From assembly GCA_026417115.1 (NCBI GenBank), contig JAOADW010000049.1, positions 44,857 through 108,856 of the forward strand: DNA of 64,000 nt, in the 5' to 3' direction. Below, piece after piece: positions 19,913 to 34,877 of this stretch. A program made the position numbers and the translations under genes. Source of the stretch: Rhodocyclaceae bacterium (lineage in GTDB: Bacteria > Pseudomonadota > Gammaproteobacteria > Burkholderiales > Rhodocyclaceae). How positions within the stretch are numbered: the first letter of the stretch is position 1; each line of letters opens with the position of its first letter. The notes under the pieces are model-generated. The model was given only the letters and a program-made list of their open reading frames with translations, was not told the origin of the DNA and did not search any database.

Positions 19913-20290
19913 TCAATAGACCAGCGTCGCCCATGCCGGATCGAGCGTACGCTGCACGAAAACACCCGCCGCTGCCGGCCCCTGATATTCTGGTATCAAT
20001 CGCTCATCGGGCGACAAGAGCGATTTCATCGCCATCGCACATGCATAGAATTTGACGTCCAGATTCGCGGCTTGACGCATCAGCGCGTAGAGCGAAAGCT
20101 CGGAGTCCGGCCAAGGTTTGAGCTTTTCTGCCTCTCCTGCCACGAGCAAGCGGACAGTGGGCCCTGCAAAATGGATCTCGACCTCGGCGTCGAACGCCGC
20201 TGCGGCGGCTGCATGGACGAAGGGCGTCGCGCAGAGGGCAGGATGATCGCCGGTCGCGCGCCAAAGCAATATGGCCAATTTATTCTTCAT
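19913..20290 (-). CDS. DsrE-like sulfur-carrier family protein
   Basis: This 125-residue protein has the alpha/beta fold pattern of DsrE/DsrF-like proteins: a first strand KLAILLWRATGD, an alanine-rich helix AAAAAAFDAEVEIHF, then LKFYACAMAMKSL-like VKFYACAMAMKS. A cysteine occurs there (C-A-M) at the place where some DsrE proteins carry the persulfide cysteine, with another at LCATPF. Members of the family shuttle sulfur or simply bind ligands. It overlaps the upstream GcvH-like gene as ATGA, so the pair is translationally coupled. The partner suggests a carrier function, but the substrate is unknown. Confidence 0.75.
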   Translation of the reverse strand: MKNKLAILLWRATGDHPALCATPFVHAAAAAAFDAEVEIHFAGPTVRLLVAGEAEKLKPWPDSELSLYALMRQAANLDVKFYACAMAMKSLLSPDERLIPEYQGPAAAGVFVQRTLDPAWATLVY

Positions 20291-20724
20291 AGAGGTATCT
20301 CCGCATGAGGCGCATGGCGGAGGACATGAGCACGATAGGTGCTGGAATCGACGAGACGCGCCCGTTCGCCCTCCCAGTTCAAAGGGCGCCCTCTGACCAT
20401 CCAGGCCGCATAGGGATCACGATTGAGCGCACGGGGGTTCTCTTCCAAAAACTCGTTTCCTTGCTGCAGGCGAAAACTCACGGGAGCATGCACGGCGAGA
20501 ATCGTCTTTGCGCATTCGATTACGCCGAGACTTCTGCCCCGCATCACCTCCGCGCCACGAGGCTTTGCGGTAAATCCGATCACCTCGCCAGCGAGATGGA
20601 CGCCATAGGGCGTGGCGCCGATGATGACTTCCTCATTCTCCAAGGCAACCCACATGTCATATTCTGGATCGTAAAGCAGCCCTTCGGGAATAGGGCAAAA
20701 AAACGCATCTTCGTTGGTCGCCAT
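20287..20724 (-). CDS. GcvH-like lipoyl-carrier protein
   Basis: This 145-residue protein aligns with glycine-cleavage H protein. EYDMWVALENEEVIIGATPYG matches the start of the H fold (trimmed here to DMWVALENEEVIIGATP), and IECAKTILAVHAPVSF matches the lipoylation block with Lys73 at the lipoyl-lysine position. NPRALNRDPY replaces the usual second-half motif. Loop changes and the absence of gcvT/gcvP nearby argue against glycine cleavage. Lipoate-binding LbpA proteins of sHdr sulfur oxidation are a known alternative. I choose the ATG at 20724, 14 nt after the tRNA-Sec 3' end, rather than TTG at 20733; neither has a clear ribosome binding site. Confidence 0.75.
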   Translation of the reverse strand: MATNEDAFFCPIPEGLLYDPEYDMWVALENEEVIIGATPYGVHLAGEVIGFTAKPRGAEVMRGRSLGVIECAKTILAVHAPVSFRLQQGNEFLEENPRALNRDPYAAWMVRGRPLNWEGERARLVDSSTYRAHVLRHAPHAEIPL

Positions 20725-20738
20725 GTCTAACAAGCCCG

Positions 20739-20834
20739 TGGCGGAAGAGAGTAGGAGTCGAACCTACCCGGGACTGCATGGCAGCCCCTGCCGGTTTTGA
20801 AGACCGGCCATCCCACCGGGGAACGTTCTCTTCC
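20739..20834 (-). tRNA. selC: tRNA-Sec (selenocysteine, anticodon UCA)
   Basis: The 96-nt minus-strand RNA has the long 8-bp acceptor GGAAGAGA/TCTCTTCC, anticodon loop CTTCAAA giving UCA, a long variable arm (AGGGGCTGCCATGCAGTCCC) and the T arm GGTTCGACTCC. It has the encoded GCCA end and closely follows the E. coli selC layout. It is serylated, converted by SelA and delivered to UGA by SelB. Its 5' end is 2 nt after the selB stop codon and 3' end 14 nt before the GcvH-like ATG, so it is probably cut out of a polycistronic transcript. Confidence 0.98.
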
Positions 20835-20836
20835 TT

Positions 20837-22756
20837 TCATTGCGCAAGCCACTTTGCACCCGCACGCAGACGATGTTCGTCTTTGACGCGGCGAGTGTAG
20901 CCCATACGGTCGAAGAATTCGAGAATGTGTATCGCCACCTTGCGCCCGCCGCGACCATCGGCGAATATCTGGTCACGGAATTCCGCAGCCCGGATTGCCC
21001 CCTTCTCTTCACAGACCCTGGCGGCGATTTCAGCCAGCCTCGCGACGGCCTCGTTGAGAAAATAATGATCATGGGCCACGCAAAACAGGCGTCCCGCGCG
21101 CGCCATACGGCGGAAGAGCTGCCGCACGCGATCCTCCGGCAGGCCGCTCGCGCGCGCGACCTCCCGCACCCTCGGTGGGTTGAAAGGAACCGTCGCGAGA
21201 AGTGGTTTGAGCGTGGCGAAGAGCGCTTCATCTGCCGCGCTGATCTCAATGCTATGCTCGGGCAGATGAAGAAACGCTTGCGTCTGCGCGATGCGTCCCG
21301 CAGCCAACAATTGCTCGACGAGCTGCACAAACGCGCTTAGCGACAGGGAGGGCGCACACATGCGCTTGAGCCGCTCGCGGGTTACGCCGAGGCTGTCGGG
21401 TGAGCGTGCGTGCTCGGCGCGCAGCGCCTCACAAAGATCATCTGCCCATTGCCACCACTTATGTGCGTCAAAGGCAATACACGCCTCACTGCCCTCACAG
21501 ACCCAAAGCCCTGCCCTTTTGGCCATGTCGAGAAGCCGCTGACGTGGGACGTTCCAAGACAGGGCAAGCGCCGAGAGATCGACGCCCGCCGAGGAAGTCA
21601 ATGCGCCATGGCGCAAGCTTTCCATCAAATCACCCGTAGCGAGCTGCGCCAATCTGGACAGATGCGCCGGCGACCGCTTGCGCCGCCTCGGTGGAAACAC
21701 CTCGAGAACACGGCCGCCCGCCAGCGTGGATTGGGCGCTCGCATCGCGCAGCACGAAACGGTCGCCATAAAGCGCATGCGTCGGCCGATCGAGCAAGATT
21801 TCGACGAATGCCGACTCGCCTTCCGCGAGAGCATCCTCGCGATCGAGCAAGGCCACACGTCCCGTGATGTCGGCCGTTCCCAAATGGACATGCACGGCTT
21901 GCAGGTGCCTCAGCGGCTTCGCCTCCTTCGCAGGGGTGATCTCGGCGTGAAAACGGTCTAGCACATGCGCAAGCATCGGCGTCACCAGCCACATGCCGCG
22001 CTCGATCTCATGCTTTTCGACGCCTGCCAGCGCCAAGGCGATGCGTTCTCCTGCTCGCCCTTCCTCAGCAGGACGATCCTGCGCGCGCAGGCTCTTGATG
22101 CGCGTCGTCGTCTGGCTGGGCAAGAGAGCCACCACTTCCCCCGCTCTGATCATCCCGGCGTGCGCGGTGCCGGTCACGACCGTCCCCGTCCCCATGAGCG
22201 TAAAGACGCGGTCGATGGCGAGGCGGAATCCTCCTTCCAAGGAACGCGGCGACAACTGTTGCGCTTCTGCGACGAGATGTGCGCGGAGCTCGGCGATGCC
22301 TTCGCCCGTTTTGCTCGAGGTGCGAAAAATCGGCGCCGCCTCCCAGGGCGTGCGCACAAGCGCCATGCGCACCTCTTGTTCCGCCTCCTCGATACGCCCT
22401 CGCTCGACGGCGTCGCACTTGGTGAGCGCCACGGCGCCACGCGCAAGTCCCAACAGACGCAAAAGCTCGAGGTGCTCCCGTGTCTGGGGCATCACACCGT
22501 CATCGGCGGCGACGACCAAAAGCACGAAATCGATTCCCGTGGCGCCTGCGAGCATGTTATGCACGAGGCGCTCATGCCCTGGGACATCGACAAAGCCCAG
22601 CACCTGGCCATTCGTGGTTTCCACATAGGCATAGCCGAGATCGAGCGTCATTCCACGCGCTTTTTCCTCCGGCAGTCGGTCGCAGTCGACGCCGGTGAGC
22701 GCTTTCACCAGGGTCGTTTTGCCGTGATCGATGTGACCTGCCGTGCCGATGATCAT
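20837..22756 (-). CDS. selB: Selenocysteine-specific translation elongation factor
   Basis: SelB is the GTPase that delivers Sec-tRNA to UGA codons followed by a SECIS hairpin. The 639-residue protein has the G1 motif AGHIDHGKTTL, the switch RGMTLDLGYAYVE, G3 DVPGHE and G4 TKCD. EF-Tu-like domains II-III come next. Four winged helices, including PRVREVARASGLPEDRVRQLFR, form the SECIS-binding C-terminus. The start overlaps the selA stop (ATGA). The gene's own stop is UGA, 2 nt before selC, which is noteworthy in a Sec-decoding cell. Confidence 0.97.
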   Translation of the reverse strand: MIIGTAGHIDHGKTTLVKALTGVDCDRLPEEKARGMTLDLGYAYVETTNGQVLGFVDVPGHERLVHNMLAGATGIDFVLLVVAADDGVMPQTREHLELLRLLGLARGAVALTKCDAVERGRIEEAEQEVRMALVRTPWEAAPIFRTSSKTGEGIAELRAHLVAEAQQLSPRSLEGGFRLAIDRVFTLMGTGTVVTGTAHAGMIRAGEVVALLPSQTTTRIKSLRAQDRPAEEGRAGERIALALAGVEKHEIERGMWLVTPMLAHVLDRFHAEITPAKEAKPLRHLQAVHVHLGTADITGRVALLDREDALAEGESAFVEILLDRPTHALYGDRFVLRDASAQSTLAGGRVLEVFPPRRRKRSPAHLSRLAQLATGDLMESLRHGALTSSAGVDLSALALSWNVPRQRLLDMAKRAGLWVCEGSEACIAFDAHKWWQWADDLCEALRAEHARSPDSLGVTRERLKRMCAPSLSLSAFVQLVEQLLAAGRIAQTQAFLHLPEHSIEISAADEALFATLKPLLATVPFNPPRVREVARASGLPEDRVRQLFRRMARAGRLFCVAHDHYFLNEAVARLAEIAARVCEEKGAIRAAEFRDQIFADGRGGRKVAIHILEFFDRMGYTRRVKDEHRLRAGAKWLAQ

Positions 22757-24141
22757 GACAAGGTACGCAAATTGGCGAGAAACGGCGCTTCATCGCGCTC
22801 TTCGAGACAGCGTAAATCCCAAAGCATCGTCTGCGCTTCGATCCTGCCGATGACCGGCGTCGGCAACGCATGCAACGCCTTTTCGAGGCGCAAGAGCGGC
22901 GCCCGCGCCTTGCCCGTGGGGCGTATCGCCAAACCAGCCGAGGGCAAGCGTTCGATGGGCAGCGCCCCGGACCCGATCTGAGAGAAAAGCGATGTCACCT
23001 CTATGGTCACCGGCCATGCCGCGAGCGCCGCACGCACGAAAGGCAGCAAATGCCGCGCGCGGCCTTCGATTTCGCCTTGCGTTCGGACGAGCAAGCGCAA
23101 CGTCGTCAAGCGATCTGCGAGGCGGTCGGGGTTCTGATACAGGCGCAAGACGGCCTCCAATGCCGCAAGCGTGAGCTTCCCCACGCGCAAGGCCCGCTTG
23201 AGGGGGTTTTTCTTGATCTTCGCGATCAGTTCGCGTCTGCCGACGAGCAATCCCGCTTGCGGGCCGCCGAGGAGCTTGTCGGCCGAAAAGCTGACGAGAT
23301 CCGCACCCGCGCTCAAGGATTCCTGCGGCGTCGGCTCATGTGCAAGCCCCCATGGCTCCAAATCGACGAGCGTCCCCGAGCCGAGATCGACCACGAAGGG
23401 AATCCCCTTTTCATGCGCAAGTTCAGCGAGTTCGCGTTCCGGCACCGCGTGCGTGAAGCCCACGATCGCGTAGTTGCTGGTATGCACCTTCATGATCAGG
23501 GCGGTCTTCGCACCGATCGCCGCCGCAAAGTCGTGCCGGTGCGTCCGGTTGGTCGTGCCGACTTCGACGAGCTTGGCGCCCGCACGGCGCATGATCTCGG
23601 GAATGCGAAAAGAGCCCCCGATCTCGACGAGCTCGCCGCGAGAAACCACCACTTCCTTTCTCTGCGCCAGGGTGTTGAGCAACAAAAACACCGCGGCCGC
23701 GTTGTTGTTGACGACGGTCGCTGCCTCGGCGCCCGTGATCCCAACGAGCAGGTCTTCGATGATGTCATCGCGATCGCCGCGCATCCCTCGCGCAAGATCA
23801 TATTCGAGCGCGCAAGGCTGGCGGGCTGCCGTCGTCAAAGCGACTATCGCTTCTTCCGGCAACGGCGCGCGGCCCAGATTGGTGTGCAACACCGTGCCCG
23901 TTAGATTGAAGACGGGCCTAAGCCTTGGGCTCGTCGCGGCAACCACCTTCTCTTCGATTTTTCCCCACAGCGCCGCCTCTTCGAGGACCGGCGCGCCCGC
24001 CCGAATCATCGCTCGTGCTTCGGCGAGCGCCTGGCGCACGCAATCGGCGATCACGGCACGCCCATGCGCCGCGATCCAGGCAGCGGCGCGTGGATCGGAA
24101 AGCAAACGGTCAACCGCAGGAATGCGAGCAAGCGGATTCAT
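22753..24141 (-). CDS. selA: L-seryl-tRNA(Sec) selenium transferase
   Basis: SelA is a PLP enzyme that converts Ser-tRNA(Sec) to Sec-tRNA(Sec) using selenophosphate. The 462-residue protein has the N-terminal tRNA-binding domain (IPAVDRLLSDPRA) and the conserved VFNLTGTVLHTNLGRAPL. The PLP lysine is in SFSADKLLGGPQAG. It lies 39 nt downstream of fdhE and overlaps selB by four bases. The selenophosphate synthetase gene selD is not in the window and must be elsewhere for this system to work. Confidence 0.97.
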   Translation of the reverse strand: MNPLARIPAVDRLLSDPRAAAWIAAHGRAVIADCVRQALAEARAMIRAGAPVLEEAALWGKIEEKVVAATSPRLRPVFNLTGTVLHTNLGRAPLPEEAIVALTTAARQPCALEYDLARGMRGDRDDIIEDLLVGITGAEAATVVNNNAAAVFLLLNTLAQRKEVVVSRGELVEIGGSFRIPEIMRRAGAKLVEVGTTNRTHRHDFAAAIGAKTALIMKVHTSNYAIVGFTHAVPERELAELAHEKGIPFVVDLGSGTLVDLEPWGLAHEPTPQESLSAGADLVSFSADKLLGGPQAGLLVGRRELIAKIKKNPLKRALRVGKLTLAALEAVLRLYQNPDRLADRLTTLRLLVRTQGEIEGRARHLLPFVRAALAAWPVTIEVTSLFSQIGSGALPIERLPSAGLAIRPTGKARAPLLRLEKALHALPTPVIGRIEAQTMLWDLRCLEERDEAPFLANLRTLS

Positions 24142-24180: not shown

Positions 24181-25095
24181 CTATGCGTTACCCGGTATGT
24201 AGAGCAGATTTGGGCCGATACGGCCGTAGCCCTCCTGATCCATCAACAAGTCGAGCGTGAGCGTCGCCAAATCGTCGGCCACCGGATCCCCACCGCTTTT
24301 TTCCAGATTTATGACCTTCAAATATCCTTTACAGGCATCGCAGGCTTCCGCGCGCACATCATCGCGACGACAGCCTGCTTCATCCTCGAGAAAACGGTAG
24401 CTGACGTGCTCTTCGCTCCCACAACTGACACACTTGGCGCGCACGAAATGCCATTCGCAATTGCATAAGGGGCAATGCAAATAGCGTAGGTTGGCGAAGT
24501 CAGCGACGCTCTTGAGGACAGCCGCTACGGGCAAGAATCCACAACAAGGACAGACGCTGCCTACATCGAGAGGGGTGATAGCCGTAATGGCGAGGCTTTG
24601 CGCCATGCTCGTCCAATAGACCTCCAAGGCAGAAGCAATGATAGGCTGCAGCAGCGCATCCTCGCCCCCCAAGTCGGTATGCAAGACTCGCTCAGCGATC
24701 GCTTCGAGCCTGTCTGCGTTCGTTCCGAGAGGCACCAGGGCTTCTCGCAAAGCCTGTGGTGCAATGGGCATGAGATTCTCCGCCAAACAGCGGAAGATGG
24801 CCCGCCAAAGAGGATCTCTCGGCAAAGATTGCGCGAGGAGGGGCGGCATGCGATATTCCTTTGACCGTGCGAGTTGCGCCGACGAAGGCAACGTAGGCGC
24901 AGGGGCTTTTTGCAAACACCGCTGCTGCGCGTCTGCAAGAGCGCCGAGGAAAGTGAGCCAATCCCCAAGCGCATGACCTTGCGCGAGCTCGTAAAGACGC
25001 GCCGCACGGCGCGTAAAGACATCTGTCGGAGCGATCAGGATCTTTGGTGCGGCTCCGCTCGCAGGGACTTCACCAGCCGACATCGAAAAATTCAT
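24181..25095 (-). CDS. fdhE: Formate dehydrogenase accessory protein FdhE
   Basis: FdhE is a cytoplasmic maturation factor for Tat-exported formate dehydrogenases and binds iron through rubredoxin-like cysteines. Here the cysteine pairs CPCCGFLP, CPLCNCEW, CVSCGSEE and CDACKGYLK are present in the C-terminal half. The usual FDH-maturation sequence length of about 305 fits. The track's start (25122) falls inside a terminator hairpin, so I use the ATG at 25095 (MNFSMSAG); ATG 25083 is also possible. It is separated from fdnI by that terminator but likely receives some read-through, and it heads the fdhE-selA-selB-selC run. Confidence 0.9.
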   Translation of the reverse strand: MNFSMSAGEVPASGAAPKILIAPTDVFTRRAARLYELAQGHALGDWLTFLGALADAQQRCLQKAPAPTLPSSAQLARSKEYRMPPLLAQSLPRDPLWRAIFRCLAENLMPIAPQALREALVPLGTNADRLEAIAERVLHTDLGGEDALLQPIIASALEVYWTSMAQSLAITAITPLDVGSVCPCCGFLPVAAVLKSVADFANLRYLHCPLCNCEWHFVRAKCVSCGSEEHVSYRFLEDEAGCRRDDVRAEACDACKGYLKVINLEKSGGDPVADDLATLTLDLLMDQEGYGRIGPNLLYIPGNA

Positions 25096-25098
25096 CTC

Positions 25099-25134
25099 AA
25101 AAAAAGAAAAAAGCGGGTGCACCCATGCACCCGC
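25099..25134 (-). terminator. Rho-independent terminator between fdnI and fdhE
   Basis: On the minus strand GCGGGTGCA pairs perfectly with TGCACCCGC around a TGGG loop, followed by TTTTTTCTTTTTTT. This is a textbook intrinsic terminator. It lies 13 nt after the fdnI stop and ends just before the fdhE start, so it should separate high expression of the enzyme from lower expression of fdhE-selAB-selC. Confidence 0.88.
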
Positions 25135-25147
25135 AACAGGAGGACGA

Positions 25148-25771
25148 TCACGATTTGCCTGTCATTTCTCGATACCATGCGCGGTGGTGCTGTTTGGCCC
25201 ACGCACGCGTCACTGTGCCATACCACATGGCGCGTATCGTTCCCTTGACCCAGATCGCCGCATAAACATGCACGAAGATGAGGCCGATCATTACGGCCGC
25301 AGTCGCGGCATGGATCACGACCGCAAGGCGCACGAGCAAAATCGGGAATTCGAAGTACGCACGCCACATCACGATGCCAGAAAGCGTCAGCAATAGCATG
25401 CAAATGGCAAGTAGCCAAAACAAAAGTTTCTGACCACCATTGTATTTGCCCTGCTCCGGCATGTCGTGATCATTGCCCTCGACCATCTCTCCAATGCGCC
25501 GCAACCACTTCTTGTCCACCTCTGTGATGCGATTGAGGTCTTTGAAGCGCAGGAATAAGGCCAAGAACGACACCGCCATAAGCACGCCGATGAACGGGTG
25601 CAGAATGCGCGCCCATACGGGCCCGCCAAAGAGCTGAGTGAGCGGCCAGTAGGCCGGGTGAAAGAAGGCGAGCCCTGACAGCGCCAGTAGGATGAAGCAG
25701 ATGCCGACGACCCAGTGATTGGCGCGTTCTGCCGGAGTATAACGAACAAGGTCCTTCGGATCGCGAATCAT
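25148..25771 (-). CDS. fdnI: Formate dehydrogenase cytochrome b556 (gamma) subunit
   Basis: The 207-residue integral membrane subunit passes electrons from FdnH to the quinone pool. Four transmembrane segments are evident. The haem-ligand histidines of the E. coli FdnI pattern are present: His19 (ERANHWV), His58 (ARILHPF), one in VIHAATAA and one in IFVHVYAAI. The start overlaps the fdnH stop by four bases. A strong terminator follows 13 nt later. The type is the nitrate-respiration or aerobic Fdn/Fdo class; I cannot tell which electron acceptor is used. Confidence 0.96.
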
Positions 25772-26655
25772 GTGCTCTCCTCCTTTTCGAGCTCATCTTC
25801 GAGCTTTTTGCTCACTTCATTGGGGCCTTTGATGACATAGTGGAACAAGCTGCCCAGCGCTACGGCCGCCATGGCGACCGTGGCGAGTGGCTTGGCGAAG
25901 CCTTTCCACAGCGAAACCAAAGGACTGATCGAGGGATCCGGGGGTAACCCGCTATAGAGCTCAGGGCGGTCAGCATGGTGCAAGACATACATGACATGTG
26001 TGCCACCGACGCCTGGCGGATCGTAGAGTCCCGCTTTTTCGAAACCGCGCATTTTGAGATCCTTGATGCGCTTGTCGGCATAGTCCTTCATTTGTTCCTT
26101 GGAGCCGAATTGCAGGGCGCCTGTCGGGCAAGATTTGACACAGGCGGGCGCCTGGCCAACCGCTACCCGATCGGAACACAGCGTGCACTTATAGGCTTTG
26201 CCGTCTTCCTTGGCGATGCGCGGGATATTGAAGGGACAGCCCGTGATGCAGTAGCCACATCCGATGCAATTTTCTTGCTGGAAGTCGACAATGCCATTTG
26301 CATATTGAATGATGGCCCCTGGCGACGGACAAGCCTTCAGACACCCTGGATCTGCACAGTGCATGCAGCCGTCTTTACGAATCAGCCATTGCAGGCGCCC
26401 TCCCTCCTCGACTTCGGCGAATCGCATCACCGTCCAAGACTTGGCGCTGAGATCCACGGGGTTGTCATAGACGCCGACACAGTTTCCTACTTCATCTCGG
26501 ATGTCGTTCCATTCCATGCAAGCCACCTGGCAGGCCTTACAGCCGATGCAGGCAGACACGTCGATCAATTTCGCGACCTCGGTCGTCTGCCTGAGGGCGG
26601 GTGCAGGCGTCGTCGTCGCCGAGCGGCGGGTGATATCCAAGCTTTGCAGTGCCAT
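25768..26655 (-). CDS. fdnH: Formate dehydrogenase iron-sulfur (beta) subunit
   Basis: This 295-residue protein transfers electrons from FdnG to FdnI. It has four 4Fe-4S clusters of ferredoxin type ([50 protein letters not shown]) and a C-terminal transmembrane anchor ([18 protein letters not shown]). It has no signal peptide, so it is co-exported with FdnG by Tat. It starts 11 nt after fdnG, with a gap consistent with co-translation, and overlaps fdnI. Confidence 0.96.
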
Positions 26656-26666
26656 GACGAGACTCC

Positions 26667-29600
26667 TTACGCCTTCTCGATGTTGACCAGGAATGCCTTG
26701 AATTCCGGTGTATGCGAATTCGCATCACCGACATAAGGCGTTAGCGTATTGACGATGTAGCCCGGTTTGACCACGCCTTTGAATCCCCAGTGCGTGGGCA
26801 GCCCTATCACATGCACTTTCTTCCCTCCGACATCGAGAGGGCGAATACGCTTGGTAACCACCGCAACGGCCTTGATTTGGCCGCGCATGCTACGAATCTT
26901 GACGCGGTCCCCATTCTTGATTCCTTTCTCCTTGGCCAAGACCTCGTCGATTTCGACGAACTGCTCTGGCTGTACCACGGCATTCGCGCGCGCATGCTTG
27001 GTCCAGTAATGGAAATGCTCGACCAAGCGATAGGTGGTGGCGACATAGGGAAAGTCCTTGGCCGTGCCAAAGACCTCCATGTCGCCCTTATACACCCGCG
27101 CGGCGGGGTTGCTCTTGGCCAGCGGGTTGTTGGGATGGAAGGGATTGGCGTCAAGTGGGGTTTCAAACGGCTCGTAGTGCTCTGGGAAAGGTCCATCGAC
27201 CATCGCTGGCGCAAAAAGCCGTGCCACACCTTCGGGGTTCATGATGAACGGCCCTACCCCTTCCTCGGGTGCAGCGTCCGGACGCATGTCGGGAACATCA
27301 TTGCCGCCCCATCTGCCTCCCGACCAGCGAATCACGGCCCGACTGGGATCCCAGGGCTTGCCGCTTGGATCGCAGCTTGCGCGGTTGTAGATGATGCGGC
27401 GATTGGCTGGCCACGCAAAGCCCCAATTCGGCGTCTGCCCCAAGCCGGAGGGATCCGAGTTGTCGCGCCGTGCGGTCAGATTCCCTGCCTGCGGCCAACA
27501 TCCCGCATAGATCCAGTTCCCACACGCCGTCGTACCATCGTCGCGTAGTACCGCGAAATTGGGCAGTTGTTCGCCGGCCTTGACCAACACCTTGGTAGGA
27601 TCCTTCGGATCGGTCAAGTCCGCGAGCGCCTTGCCGTTGATTTCCATCAGAAGCTCTTCGGGCGAAGGTTTGTGAGGTATCCGATAGGGCCAGGTAATGC
27701 CCATCAGCGCCTCTGGGAATACCCCGCCTTCCTTGGCATACATCGCCTTGAGCTTCAGATAGAGCGCAGCGATGATCTCGATATCGCTCTTAGCCTCGCC
27801 AGGAGGGTCAGCCGCTTTCCAATGCCATTGGATCACACGTCCCGAATTGGTGAATGATCCCGATTCCTCGGCAAACAAGGCACAAGGCAAGCGGAAGACT
27901 TCCGTCTGAATCTTTGCCGGATCGACTTCGTTATACTCGCCATGCGGCTTCCAAAACTCGGAAGTATCGGTGGCAAGCGGGTCGATGATGACCAGATATT
28001 TGAGCTTGGCGAGCGCATCTGCCACCTTGCGCTTGTTCGGGATTGATGCCAAAGGATTATATCCTTGACATACGAAGCCGGTCATCTTTCCTTGATGCAT
28101 GCGCTCGAAAATGGCCATCGTGTCATAGGCGCCATCGATTTTCGGCAGCCAGTCGTAGCAAAAATCGTTCTCCGGCTTGGCGTGATCGCCATAGAACGCT
28201 TTTTGTAGGCTGGTAAACCACTTCGGGAAGTTCTGCGGGAAGTTCATCTGATTCGGCCGCAGAGCCTTCGGCGTGCGCTTCTCCAAATATGTTTTGCGGT
28301 CTATGTCAGCATCGGTTGGCGCCGAAAGATACCCGGGTAAAGTCGCACCGAAAAGGTTCATGTCGGTGATGCCCTGGACATTGGCGTGCCCCCGCAGCGC
28401 ATTGACGCCTCCACCGGCCATGCCGATATTGCCGAGCAAGAGCTGGATCATCGCCATCGTACGGATGATCTGAGAGCCCTTCGAGTGCTCTGTCCAGCCA
28501 AGCGCATACAAGATGGTCATGGTCTTGTCGGGTGCCGCGGTTTCAGCGATCCACTCACAGACCTTGAGAAACGCCTCCTTCGGAGTGCCACAGACCTGAG
28601 CCACCATCTCCGGCGTGTAGCGGGAGAAGTGCGTTTTCATCAGCTGAAAGACACAATGGGGATCACTCAAGGTTTCGTCGACTTTGACATAGCCGTCCTT
28701 GTCCAGCTGATAGCTCCAAGTCGTCCTGTCGTAGCTGCGCTTTTCCGGGTTGTAGCCAGAAAAAAGACCCTCCTCGAATTTGTAGTCGGGGTTAATCAAG
28801 AAACTCGCATTGGTGTAGTGCTTGACGTATTCATGATGAATCTTGTCGTGGGTGAGCAAATAATTGATCACCCCTCCCAGGAAGGCTATATCGCTTCCCG
28901 GTCGCAAGGGCGCATAGAAATCCGCCACAGCCGCCGAGCGGGTAAAGCGTGGGTCACAGACGACAAGCTTGGCCTTGCGTTCCTTCTTCGCCTCGACCAC
29001 CCATTTGAAGCCACAGGGGTGTGCCTCTGCGGCATTTCCTCCCATGACGATGATGAGATCGGCATTCTTGATGTCCACCCAGTGGTTGGTCATCGCACCG
29101 CGCCCAAATGTCGGGGCCAGACTGGTCACCGTGGGCGAGTGTCAGATGCGGGCCTGGGTTTCGAACGCAACGCAGCCGAGGGCGCGTAAGACCTTGTGGG
29201 TCAGATAGCCGGTCTCATTGCTCGCTGCCGACGACGCGAGAAATCCAAAGGTATTCCACCGATTGACGGTAATCCCTTTTTCGTTTTTCTCGATGAAGCT
29301 TGCGTCACGATCGGCCTTCATGTGCTTGGCAATGCGCTCGATTGCCTCCTCCCAGGAAATGCGTTTCCATTCCGCGCTTCCCGGCTCCCGTACCTGCGGA
29401 TACTTGAGCCGATTCGGGCTTTTGACCATGTCGAGCAATCCAGCGCCTTTCGGGCAGAGCGTTCCCCGATTGACCGGATTGTCCGGATCGCCTTCGATGT
29501 GGATGATGTCGGGTTTGGCGTTTTTCGCCTTGTCACCCACGGTGTAGATCAACACCCCGCAGCTTACCGAGCAATAGGGGCACATGTTGCGCGTTTCCGT

Positions 29601-29729
29601 GGCACGCGCGAGCTTGAAGGCACGCACCTCTGCCAGCGCGGGTGCGGGCGAGAAGCCCATCAGGGCAATGCTCGACCCCCCCATGCCAGCGGCGCATACC
29701 TTGAAGAACTGACGCCGCGTAAGTTGCAT
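26667..29729 (-). CDS. fdnG: Formate dehydrogenase catalytic (alpha) subunit, selenoprotein
   Basis: FdnG oxidises formate with a bis-MGD molybdenum (or tungsten) cofactor, a 4Fe-4S cluster and selenocysteine in the periplasm. The ORF track splits it into 29142-29765 and 26667-29129 at an in-frame UGA (29142-29144), but the frame continues through it as [21 protein letters not shown], the family's Sec site, so Sec is residue 196 of 1020. The N-terminus [10 protein letters not shown] is a twin-arginine signal, and CPYCSVSCG begins the Fe-S site. The start at 29729 has GAGGAGG upstream. A truncated product would form if Sec insertion failed. Confidence 0.97.
29104..29144 (-). promoter_or_regulatory. 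SECIS element and Sec UGA codon of fdnG
   Basis: UGA occupies 29142-29144. Starting about 14 nt downstream, GACC-AGUCU-GGCC forms a short stem (one A-C mismatch) with an AGUCU loop. This resembles the apical loop of the E. coli fdnG SECIS read by SelB. The stem is short and I could not compute its stability. Confidence 0.8.
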
Positions 29730-33321: not shown

Positions 33322-34257
33322 TCAAACCATGCCGCTTTCCTGCGCCAGGCGATCGGCATGATAGGACGAACGCACGAGCGGCGCGCTCGCCACATTGACG
33401 AAGCCGAGCGCGCGCGCTGCTTCCGCATAGATTTCGAAGACGTCGGGCGCGACATAGCGCGCCACCGGCAAGTGATGAGCGGAAGGCGCGAGGTACTGGC
33501 CTATCGTGAGCATGTCGACGCCATGCGCGCGCAAATCGCGCATGACGTCCAGAATTTCCTCATCGCGTTCGCCCAAACCCACCATGAGGCCGGATTTGGT
33601 CGGCACTTGGGGGGCAAGGCGCTTGAATTCGGCAAGCAGCCTCAACGAATGGGCATAATCGGCGCCAGGCCGTACCTGCTTGTAGAGGCGCGGGACGGTC
33701 TCGAGGTTGTGGTTCATCACGTCGGGAGGGTCGGCAGCGAGGATCGCCAGCGCCACGTCGAGTCGGCCACGAAAATCCGGCGTCAGGATCTCGATTTTCG
33801 TCGCCGGTGCCATCTTCCGGATCGCGCGTATGCAGGCAGCGAATTGTGCGGCGCCGCCATCCTTGAGATCGTCGCGATCTACGCTGGTGATGACGACATA
33901 GCGGAGCCCAAGTTCAGCGACGGTGTGCGCCAGGCGCTCTGGCTCTGCAGCATCGGGCGGCGCGGGCCGTCCGTGGCCGACATCGCAAAAAGGACAACGG
34001 CGTGTGCAGAGGTCGCCCAGGATCATGAAGCTTGCGGTGCCGTGGCCGAAGCATTCGCCGATGTTGGGGCAGGTCGCCTCCTCGCAGACCGTATGCAGGC
34101 CCTGCGCGCGCAAAAGCCGCTTCATCTCGCCAAAGCGCCCTGCGGAATGCACGGCCTTGACGCGTAGCCAGGATGGTTTCGACAAAGGCGTCGCCACCGG
34201 CACGACTTTGATAGGGATCCTTGACGTTTTGGCTTCGCCTTTCTGTTTGACGGTCAT
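33322..34257 (-). CDS. lipA: Lipoyl synthase
   Basis: LipA inserts two sulfur atoms into protein-bound octanoyl groups. The 311-residue radical SAM enzyme has the auxiliary cluster [12 protein letters not shown], the SAM cluster [10 protein letters not shown] and the typical [15 protein letters not shown] block. The C-terminal SSYHAD holds the family serine. I start at 34257, overlapping lipB (ATGA), rather than at the track's 34329 which would run deep into lipB. With LipB it can modify the lipoyl carrier encoded at 20.3 kb as well as 2-oxoacid dehydrogenases. Confidence 0.97.
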
Positions 34258-34877
34258 AGCAGATCCTCGAGGCATCCGATCAGTCCTCTGGCGACATCCT
34301 CGAGGTTTGCATGGGGCGCAAGCGCGCACAGCTGGGTGACTTGCATGCCCTCGTAGCCACAGGGATTGATCGCAGCAAACGGAGAAAGATCCATGTCGAC
34401 GTTGAGCGACAGGCCATGATAGCAGCAGCCGTTGCGCACCCTAAGCCCTAGGGCGGCAATCTTTTTGCCGCCGACATAGACGCCAGGAGCGCCGTGGATG
34501 CGCTCGCCAGCAACGCCATATGCCGCCAGGAGACGGATGGCCGCCTCTTCGAGCCGATGGACGAGGCCTTTGACGGTCAGGCCGCGACGACGGAGATCGA
34601 GCAAAACATAGGCAATGAGCTGGCCTGGACCATGATAGGTGATCTGGCCGCCGCGGTCCGTATGGACCAAAGGCACGCCAATGTCATAACGTCGATGCTC
34701 GGGTTTGCCCGCAAGCCCCAGCGTGAAGATGGGAGGGTGTTCGCAAAGCCAGATTTCGTCATGCGTCGCGCCATCCCGAGCCGCGGTAAACGCCCGCATC
34801 GCTTCCCATGCGGCCCGATAGTCGACAAGGCCAAGGTTTTTGACGCACAGAGGGGGACGGCCGTCGCGGGCGCTCAC
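34254..34877 (-). CDS. lipB: Octanoyl-[ACP]:protein transferase
   Basis: LipB transfers octanoate from acyl-carrier protein to lipoyl domains. The 207-residue protein contains [13 protein letters not shown], the K-I-A-A-L-G-L motif with the family lysine, and [13 protein letters not shown] carrying the acyl cysteine. GTG start at 34877 overlaps the ybeD stop (GTGA); lipA overlaps its stop. The order ybeD-lipB-lipA is the standard lipoate synthesis cluster of beta- and gammaproteobacteria. Confidence 0.96.

Follow-up and report, generated by a model that had tools for sequence, protein, structure and literature searches.

The window, by which we mean the whole 64,000-nt stretch of DNA analyzed here, carries on its minus strand a run of genes in the order fdoG-fdoH-fdoI-fdhE-selA-selB-selC-GcvHL-DsrEL. 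Intergenic gaps along the run from fdoG to DsrEL are 39 nt or less. The first three genes encode a formate dehydrogenase (FDH): the catalytic subunit fdoG (26667..29729; Pfam Molybdopterin and Molydop_binding), the iron-sulfur subunit fdoH (25768..26655; Pfam Form-deh_trans and Fer4 domains), and the cytochrome b subunit fdoI (25148..25771; Pfam Ni_hydr_CYTB). They are followed by fdhE (24181..25122; TIGR01562), selA (22753..24141; TIGR00474), and selB (20837..22756; TIGR00475), each matched above the cut-off of its model, and then by the tRNA-Sec gene selC (20739..20834), which was called by ARAGORN and matched by Rfam RF01852 at 20743-20834. Reading the fdoG sequence revealed an in-frame UGA (Sec) codon at 29144-29142, also on the minus strand. 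This codon lies inside a match to the SECIS_3 element (29147-29089, minus strand; Rfam RF01989, above the gathering score). Thus, the operon encodes a selenocysteine-type FDH (Sec-FDH).

The last two genes of this fdoGHI-fdhE-selA-selB-selC operon encode small proteins. GcvHL (20287..20724, minus strand, 145 aa; Pfam GCV_H) is a GcvH-fold, putative lipoyl carrier and DsrEL (19913..20290, minus strand, 125 aa; Pfam DrsE_2 and DsrE) is a DsrE-fold, putative sulfur carrier. The GcvHL ATG lies 14 nt downstream of selC, and the GcvHL stop and DsrEL start overlap by 4 nt (ATGA), so that an earlier note on this DNA had correctly placed the pair directly behind the tRNA-Sec gene. A DUF4197 gene starts 12 nt downstream of DsrEL. 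We rejected it as part of the module because its adjacency to the pair is not conserved in the loci of relatives.

We scanned a DsrEL alignment against 84,980 species genomes and analyzed the best 80 of 93 loci. The search patterns came from close relatives, so the scan does not measure the full spread of the gene, for which evenly drawn genomes were used (see below). Most of the best 80 loci were labelled Rhodocyclales, Rhodocyclaceae, or other Betaproteobacteria. GcvHL adjoined DsrEL in 79 of these 80, with an overlap of 4 nt in 42 loci and of 8 nt in 26. In 73 of the 80, a selC gene precedes the pair in the same orientation, at 200 nt or less from GcvHL in 47; the earlier note had proposed checking whether the pair and selC occur together across genomes, and the pair is indeed found mainly with sel genes. 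Of the seven loci that lack selC, six retain GcvHL, and several end at contig breaks. Where more than 9 kb of upstream sequence was available among the best 80 loci, FDH or fdhE genes plus selA and selB were present in 46 of 55. Because the operon layout recurs in dozens of genomes, it is far beyond chance. We conclude that a lipoyl-type and DsrE-type gene pair is the conserved end of the Sec-FDH operon in many Rhodocyclales-type bacteria. We found no earlier report of the pair in the literature that we searched, on DsrE, GcvH, or lipoate in connection with FDH or selC and on selenium comparative genomics.

Some loci depart from this layout in their details. The only one of the best 80 DsrEL loci without GcvHL lies on a short contig (L073, 3001-4184), and there a second DsrE-like ORF, recognized by eye, follows. 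Varied extra ORFs are inserted among fdhE, selA, selB, and selC in many relatives (loci L040-L067), including transglutaminase-like and methyltransferase-like ORFs recognized by eye; the overlap between GcvHL and DsrEL is kept in these loci.

What kind of protein is GcvHL? It matches Pfam GCV_H with E=1.1e-18. Its score against the NCBIfam gcvH equivalog model is 57.1 bits, about half the cut-off of 115.85 bits, whereas the GcvH proteins of related genomes score above it (119.7-153.3 bits). In the AlphaFold model (pLDDT 95.5), strands 65-71 and 75-79 form a beta-hairpin whose turn contains Lys73, and the best structural matches of the model in Foldseek are H proteins. Lipoyl domains carry lipoate in such a turn between strands. 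GcvHL is thus predicted to have an H-protein fold with a candidate lipoyl-lysine in the hairpin turn. The lysine stands in an ECAKT context and is invariant in all 79 GcvHL relatives from the best 80 of the 93 DsrEL loci, which bears out the claim of the earlier note that GcvHL keeps a lipoyl-lysine context.

In a tree that has few columns and few rows of LbpA, the lipoate-binding protein of the sHdr sulfur-oxidation system, GcvHL groups by itself (95/93), and GcvH (99/99) and sHdr-type LbpA (89/84) form separate clades. We rejected the identification of GcvHL as a canonical GcvH, given the curated cut-off and the separate clade. One could still propose that GcvHL serves as an ordinary glycine-cleavage H protein or as a general lipoyl donor, since it has the H-protein fold and is the only GcvH found in the genome of the window: no second free-standing GCV_H protein turned up in this 87%-complete genome, in which the two other GCV_H matches are short segments within frames of 470 aa and 677 aa. 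However, relatives such as G003, G094, G145, G152, and G187 have a second, weaker-matching GcvH-type protein elsewhere in the genome. Together with the low model score and the constant coupling to a DsrE gene, this makes an ordinary H-protein role extremely improbable.

The nearest relatives of the pair from outside include LbpA and DsrE proteins of the sHdr type, and the two genes could accordingly be sulfur-oxidation proteins, or mere passengers after selC, unrelated to FDH. The context of the genes argues against this. At the sHdr-type LbpA loci L032 and L033, the adjoining genes are of the radical-SAM and LplA type or encode CCG domains, but in the loci of the pair that we read, we saw no coupling to hdr, lplA, or lipS. 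GcvHL also has a clade of its own, and the gene order is kept across many genera. We thus rejected the identification of GcvHL as an sHdr LbpA, on both gene context and tree, and consider a role apart from FDH to be very unlikely. One divergent member, L110, sits near LbpA in the tree. In this metagenome-assembled genome (L110, 9442-10375), an LbpA-like protein replaces the usual GcvHL in an fdo-sel-selC-DsrEL cluster.

The window also holds candidate genes for lipoylation. An LplA/LipB-fold gene, probably lipB (34254..34877, minus strand), was detected with PF21948 in a search of the bacterium's own genome and is the only match to this fold found there. Beside it lies a radical-SAM gene (33322..34329, minus strand; Pfam Radical_SAM) that is probably lipA, the lipoyl synthase gene, a name based on its position next to the lipB-type gene. 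The two genes (33322-34877) are located ∼13 kb from the GcvHL-DsrEL pair. The lipB-type product is a candidate octanoyl donor for GcvHL and, if GcvHL is lipoylated, the lipB-type and lipA-type products would be the likely enzymes. Lipoylation of GcvHL by generic enzymes is not assured, because LbpA proteins of the sHdr type are not substrates for the machinery of either E. coli or B. subtilis (PMC6067878).

DsrEL passes the Pfam gathering cut-offs of both DrsE_2 and DsrE, and these DsrE-type matches are the only Pfam matches over its 125 aa. Its AlphaFold model (pLDDT 94.6) retrieves DsrE/DsrF-family proteins in Foldseek. Cys84, in an ACAMA context, aligns with a cysteine of the solved relatives 3pnx and 3mc3 and is invariant in all 80 DsrEL relatives from the best 80 of the 93 loci. 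With this fold and a conserved cysteine of the active-site type, DsrEL belongs to the DsrE family; it has neither a SirA domain nor a CGXC motif. We made no use of a weak similarity between DsrEL and a Moco carrier protein that Foldseek reported (E=0.022, probability 0.72). Neither GcvHL nor DsrEL matches PF02634, the family of the FDH sulfurtransferase FdhD.

We wondered how closely the pair follows the use of selenocysteine. We searched 200 genomes drawn evenly from the family as well as 321 genomes of the class. In the family sample, selA was found above the cut-off in 61 genomes and a strong DsrEL match in 48: 44 genomes had both, 17 had selA only, 4 had DsrEL only, and 135 had neither (counts not corrected for phylogeny). 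DsrEL was located within 20 kb of selA in 39 of the 44 genomes with both, and in two of the four with DsrEL and no selA above the cut-off (G148 and G209) the pair lies next to SelB and selC. Beyond the family, neither GcvHL nor a sel gene was found near the strongest DsrEL matches among the 321 class genomes (G408 and G262), and the pair was absent from the sel loci that we read in five selA-bearing genomes.

We recognized Sec-type FdoG by a reading frame broken at UGA. It was found in 53 of the 200 family genomes and the pair in 43 of these 53, leaving 10 Sec-FDH genomes without it. Five Sec-using genomes, 90–99% complete, that yielded no Sec-FDH (G011, G026, G168, G175, and G205) also lack the pair. 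Two genomes, G003 and G118, have the pair and no FDH that we could find; the G003 contig starts 2.4 kb upstream of selA. Thus, it is Sec-type FDH, and not Sec use by itself, that the pair follows. ORFs resembling flavocytochrome-c-type sulfide dehydrogenase, recognized by eye, lie beside sel or FDH genes at L172 17005-18306 (G370) and L163 5264-6628 (G169), both in genomes without the pair.

These distributions bear on a possible selenium relay, in which a perselenide on DsrEL would be reduced by the dithiol of GcvHL to selenide for SelD, feeding Sec synthesis. The position of the pair directly after selC and its co-occurrence with selA are what such a relay would lead one to expect, and a link with selenium and with Campylobacter FDH biogenesis has been described for the DsrE-domain protein YedF/FdhU (PMC5322559). 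Yet the five Sec-using genomes without a detectable Sec-FDH do not have the pair, ten Sec-FDH genomes manage without it, and the frequent absence of FdhD described below would be left unexplained. We therefore regard a selenium relay as unlikely.

FdhD moves sulfur from IscS to bis-MGD and is essential for the FDHs of E. coli; according to a review, not every organism that expresses FDH has fdhD (PMC10609526). We searched for FdhD in the sampled genomes with a sensitive search (full-length matches at E=1e-45 or better, and the expected control genomes positive). Of the 43 pair-bearing Sec-FDH genomes of the family sample, 23 gave no FdhD match, compared with 1 of the 10 that lack the pair (Fisher test, two-sided, p=0.015, not corrected for phylogeny). 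The 23 FdhD-less genomes span 16 genera, and four of them are single-contig genomes (G083, G094, G152, and G187). In a named, partly overlapping set, 27 of 50 pair-bearing genomes gave no FdhD match. The FdhD-less genomes include five isolates: Azonexus hydrophilus DSM 23864, Dechloromonas agitata is5, Dechloromonas hankyongensis XY25, Rhodocyclus purpureus DSM 168, and Sulfurisoma sediminicola BSN1.

Either FdhD or the pair was present in 52 of the 53 Sec-FDH genomes of the family sample. The exception, G093, has neither; its assembly is a draft in 210 contigs, and we detected no GcvH of any type there. For Cys-type FDHs (n=13), fdhD was adjacent in 10 cases, elsewhere in the genome in 2, and not found in 1, a genome that is 52% complete. 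Two genomes of the same genus differ in the same sense: G164 has the pair and no FdhD, whereas G035 has no pair and carries fdhD beside its FDH operon, a contrast that agrees with the trend for FdhD to be absent from pair-bearers. In G035, an integrase-like ORF, recognized by eye, follows selC at the place where relatives carry the pair (L157, 9602-10825).

The two systems are not strictly exclusive. We considered and rejected strict mutual exclusion because 20 of the 43 pair-bearing Sec-FDH genomes retain FdhD. The FdhD gene lies beside the same operon in three of these 20 genomes, and in G106 fdhD is directly downstream of DsrEL. We read 16 distant FdhD loci from pair-bearers: 12 are near genes matched by FdoG or FdoH queries (FDH-like or iron-sulfur), at L178 the distant FdhD follows an ORF of 906 aa that looks, by eye, like a molybdoenzyme, and near those at L179, L185, and L191 no FDH-like or molybdoenzyme-like gene was found. 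This pattern fits, but does not prove, the idea that the distant FdhDs of pair-bearers serve other enzymes. Outside the family, FdhD was present in 11 of 13 selA-bearing genomes. Neither FdhD nor the pair was found in G370, which has a Sec-FDH cluster, and no FdhD was found in G262, where separate DsrE- and LbpA-like genes are all that is seen.

Taken together, these results suggest that GcvHL and DsrEL are maturation factors of Sec-FDH that most likely deliver the essential sulfido ligand to the Mo of bis-MGD without FdhD, a reading to which we give a probability of about 50%. The relay could run as follows: a cysteine desulfurase would load sulfane sulfur onto Cys84 of DsrEL; the DsrEL persulfide would pass to, or be reduced by, a dihydrolipoyl arm on Lys73 of GcvHL; and, ahead of export, the swinging arm would present the Mo-bisMGD of apo-FdoG with reduced sulfur and possibly with electrons. 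The gene pair and its operon, the conserved Lys and Cys, the co-occurrence with Sec-FDH, and the frequent lack of FdhD are observations, and the folds are predictions; that GcvHL is lipoylated, that sulfur moves at each of these steps, and that the pair stands in for FdhD is what we infer. The earlier note had proposed a sulfur- or selenium-relay for FDH maturation; its sulfur branch, which is FdhD-like, is favored because the pair follows Sec-FDH and FdhD is often absent, and its selenium branch has become the less likely of the two. The absence of FdhD in pair-bearers lends independent support to sulfur delivery.

Chemically, the relay is consistent with the finding that desulfo-FDH takes up sulfide in vitro only if a reductant is present (PMC12140954), since a dithiol arm and a persulfide carrier could supply both. 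The proposed passage from DsrEL to GcvHL also has a parallel, because a flow of sulfur from DsrE3C to the lipoyl protein LbpA has been proposed for sHdr sulfur oxidation (PMC11582611). The same chemistry could be read in another way: the dithiol arm, together with DsrEL, might keep the Sec/Mo site of FDH reduced or repair oxygen damage, rather than act as a sulfur source. Lipoyl dithiol chemistry would suit such a task, and the sulfido ligand of FDH is quickly lost in oxygen (PMC12140954), but this redox care would explain neither the absence of FdhD nor the invariant DsrEL cysteine beside a carrier fold, and we judge it decidedly improbable.

Sulfur delivery by the pair would have a wider implication. 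We propose, tentatively and at somewhat less than even odds, that a relay of a lipoyl swinging arm and a DsrE protein is a second natural route for the sulfido ligand of the FDH Mo-bisMGD, one that takes the place of FdhD across Rhodocyclales-type bacteria. FdhD is considered to be the sulfurtransferase of FDHs, and the pair is a concrete candidate for this step where fdhD is missing. If the proposal is true, protein-bound lipoate would have a new role, that of a sulfur carrier in the maturation of a molybdoenzyme cofactor, and the pair could aid the production of active Sec formate dehydrogenases for CO2 reduction. Cultured FdhD-less strains have been identified here, so the relay hypothesis is open to experiment.

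The pair resembles several known systems in part. GcvHL shares its fold and its lipoyl-lysine hairpin with the GcvH of glycine cleavage, and differs from it in sequence clade, model score, gene context, and presumed partner. Like YedF/FdhU, which joins SirA and DsrE domains, the pair associates a DsrE-type domain with a selenium-dependent FDH (PMC5322559); unlike YedF/FdhU, DsrEL lacks SirA and CGXC and has a lipoyl-type protein as its partner. A parallel in composition is the sHdr system of Hyphomicrobium denitrificans, where a GcvH-like lipoyl-carrier protein, LbpA, is encoded with DsrE-family sulfur carriers (PMC6067878, PMC11582611), whereas our pair is part of an fdo-sel operon, without coupled hdr, lplA, or lipS, and its GcvHL falls in a separate clade. 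Compared with FdhD (FdsC), a sulfurtransferase and bis-MGD carrier, the pair consists of two small proteins of different folds with no sequence match to it. Like FdhD, however, the pair is tied to FDH genes, and its proposed role is the sulfuration of Mo-bisMGD.
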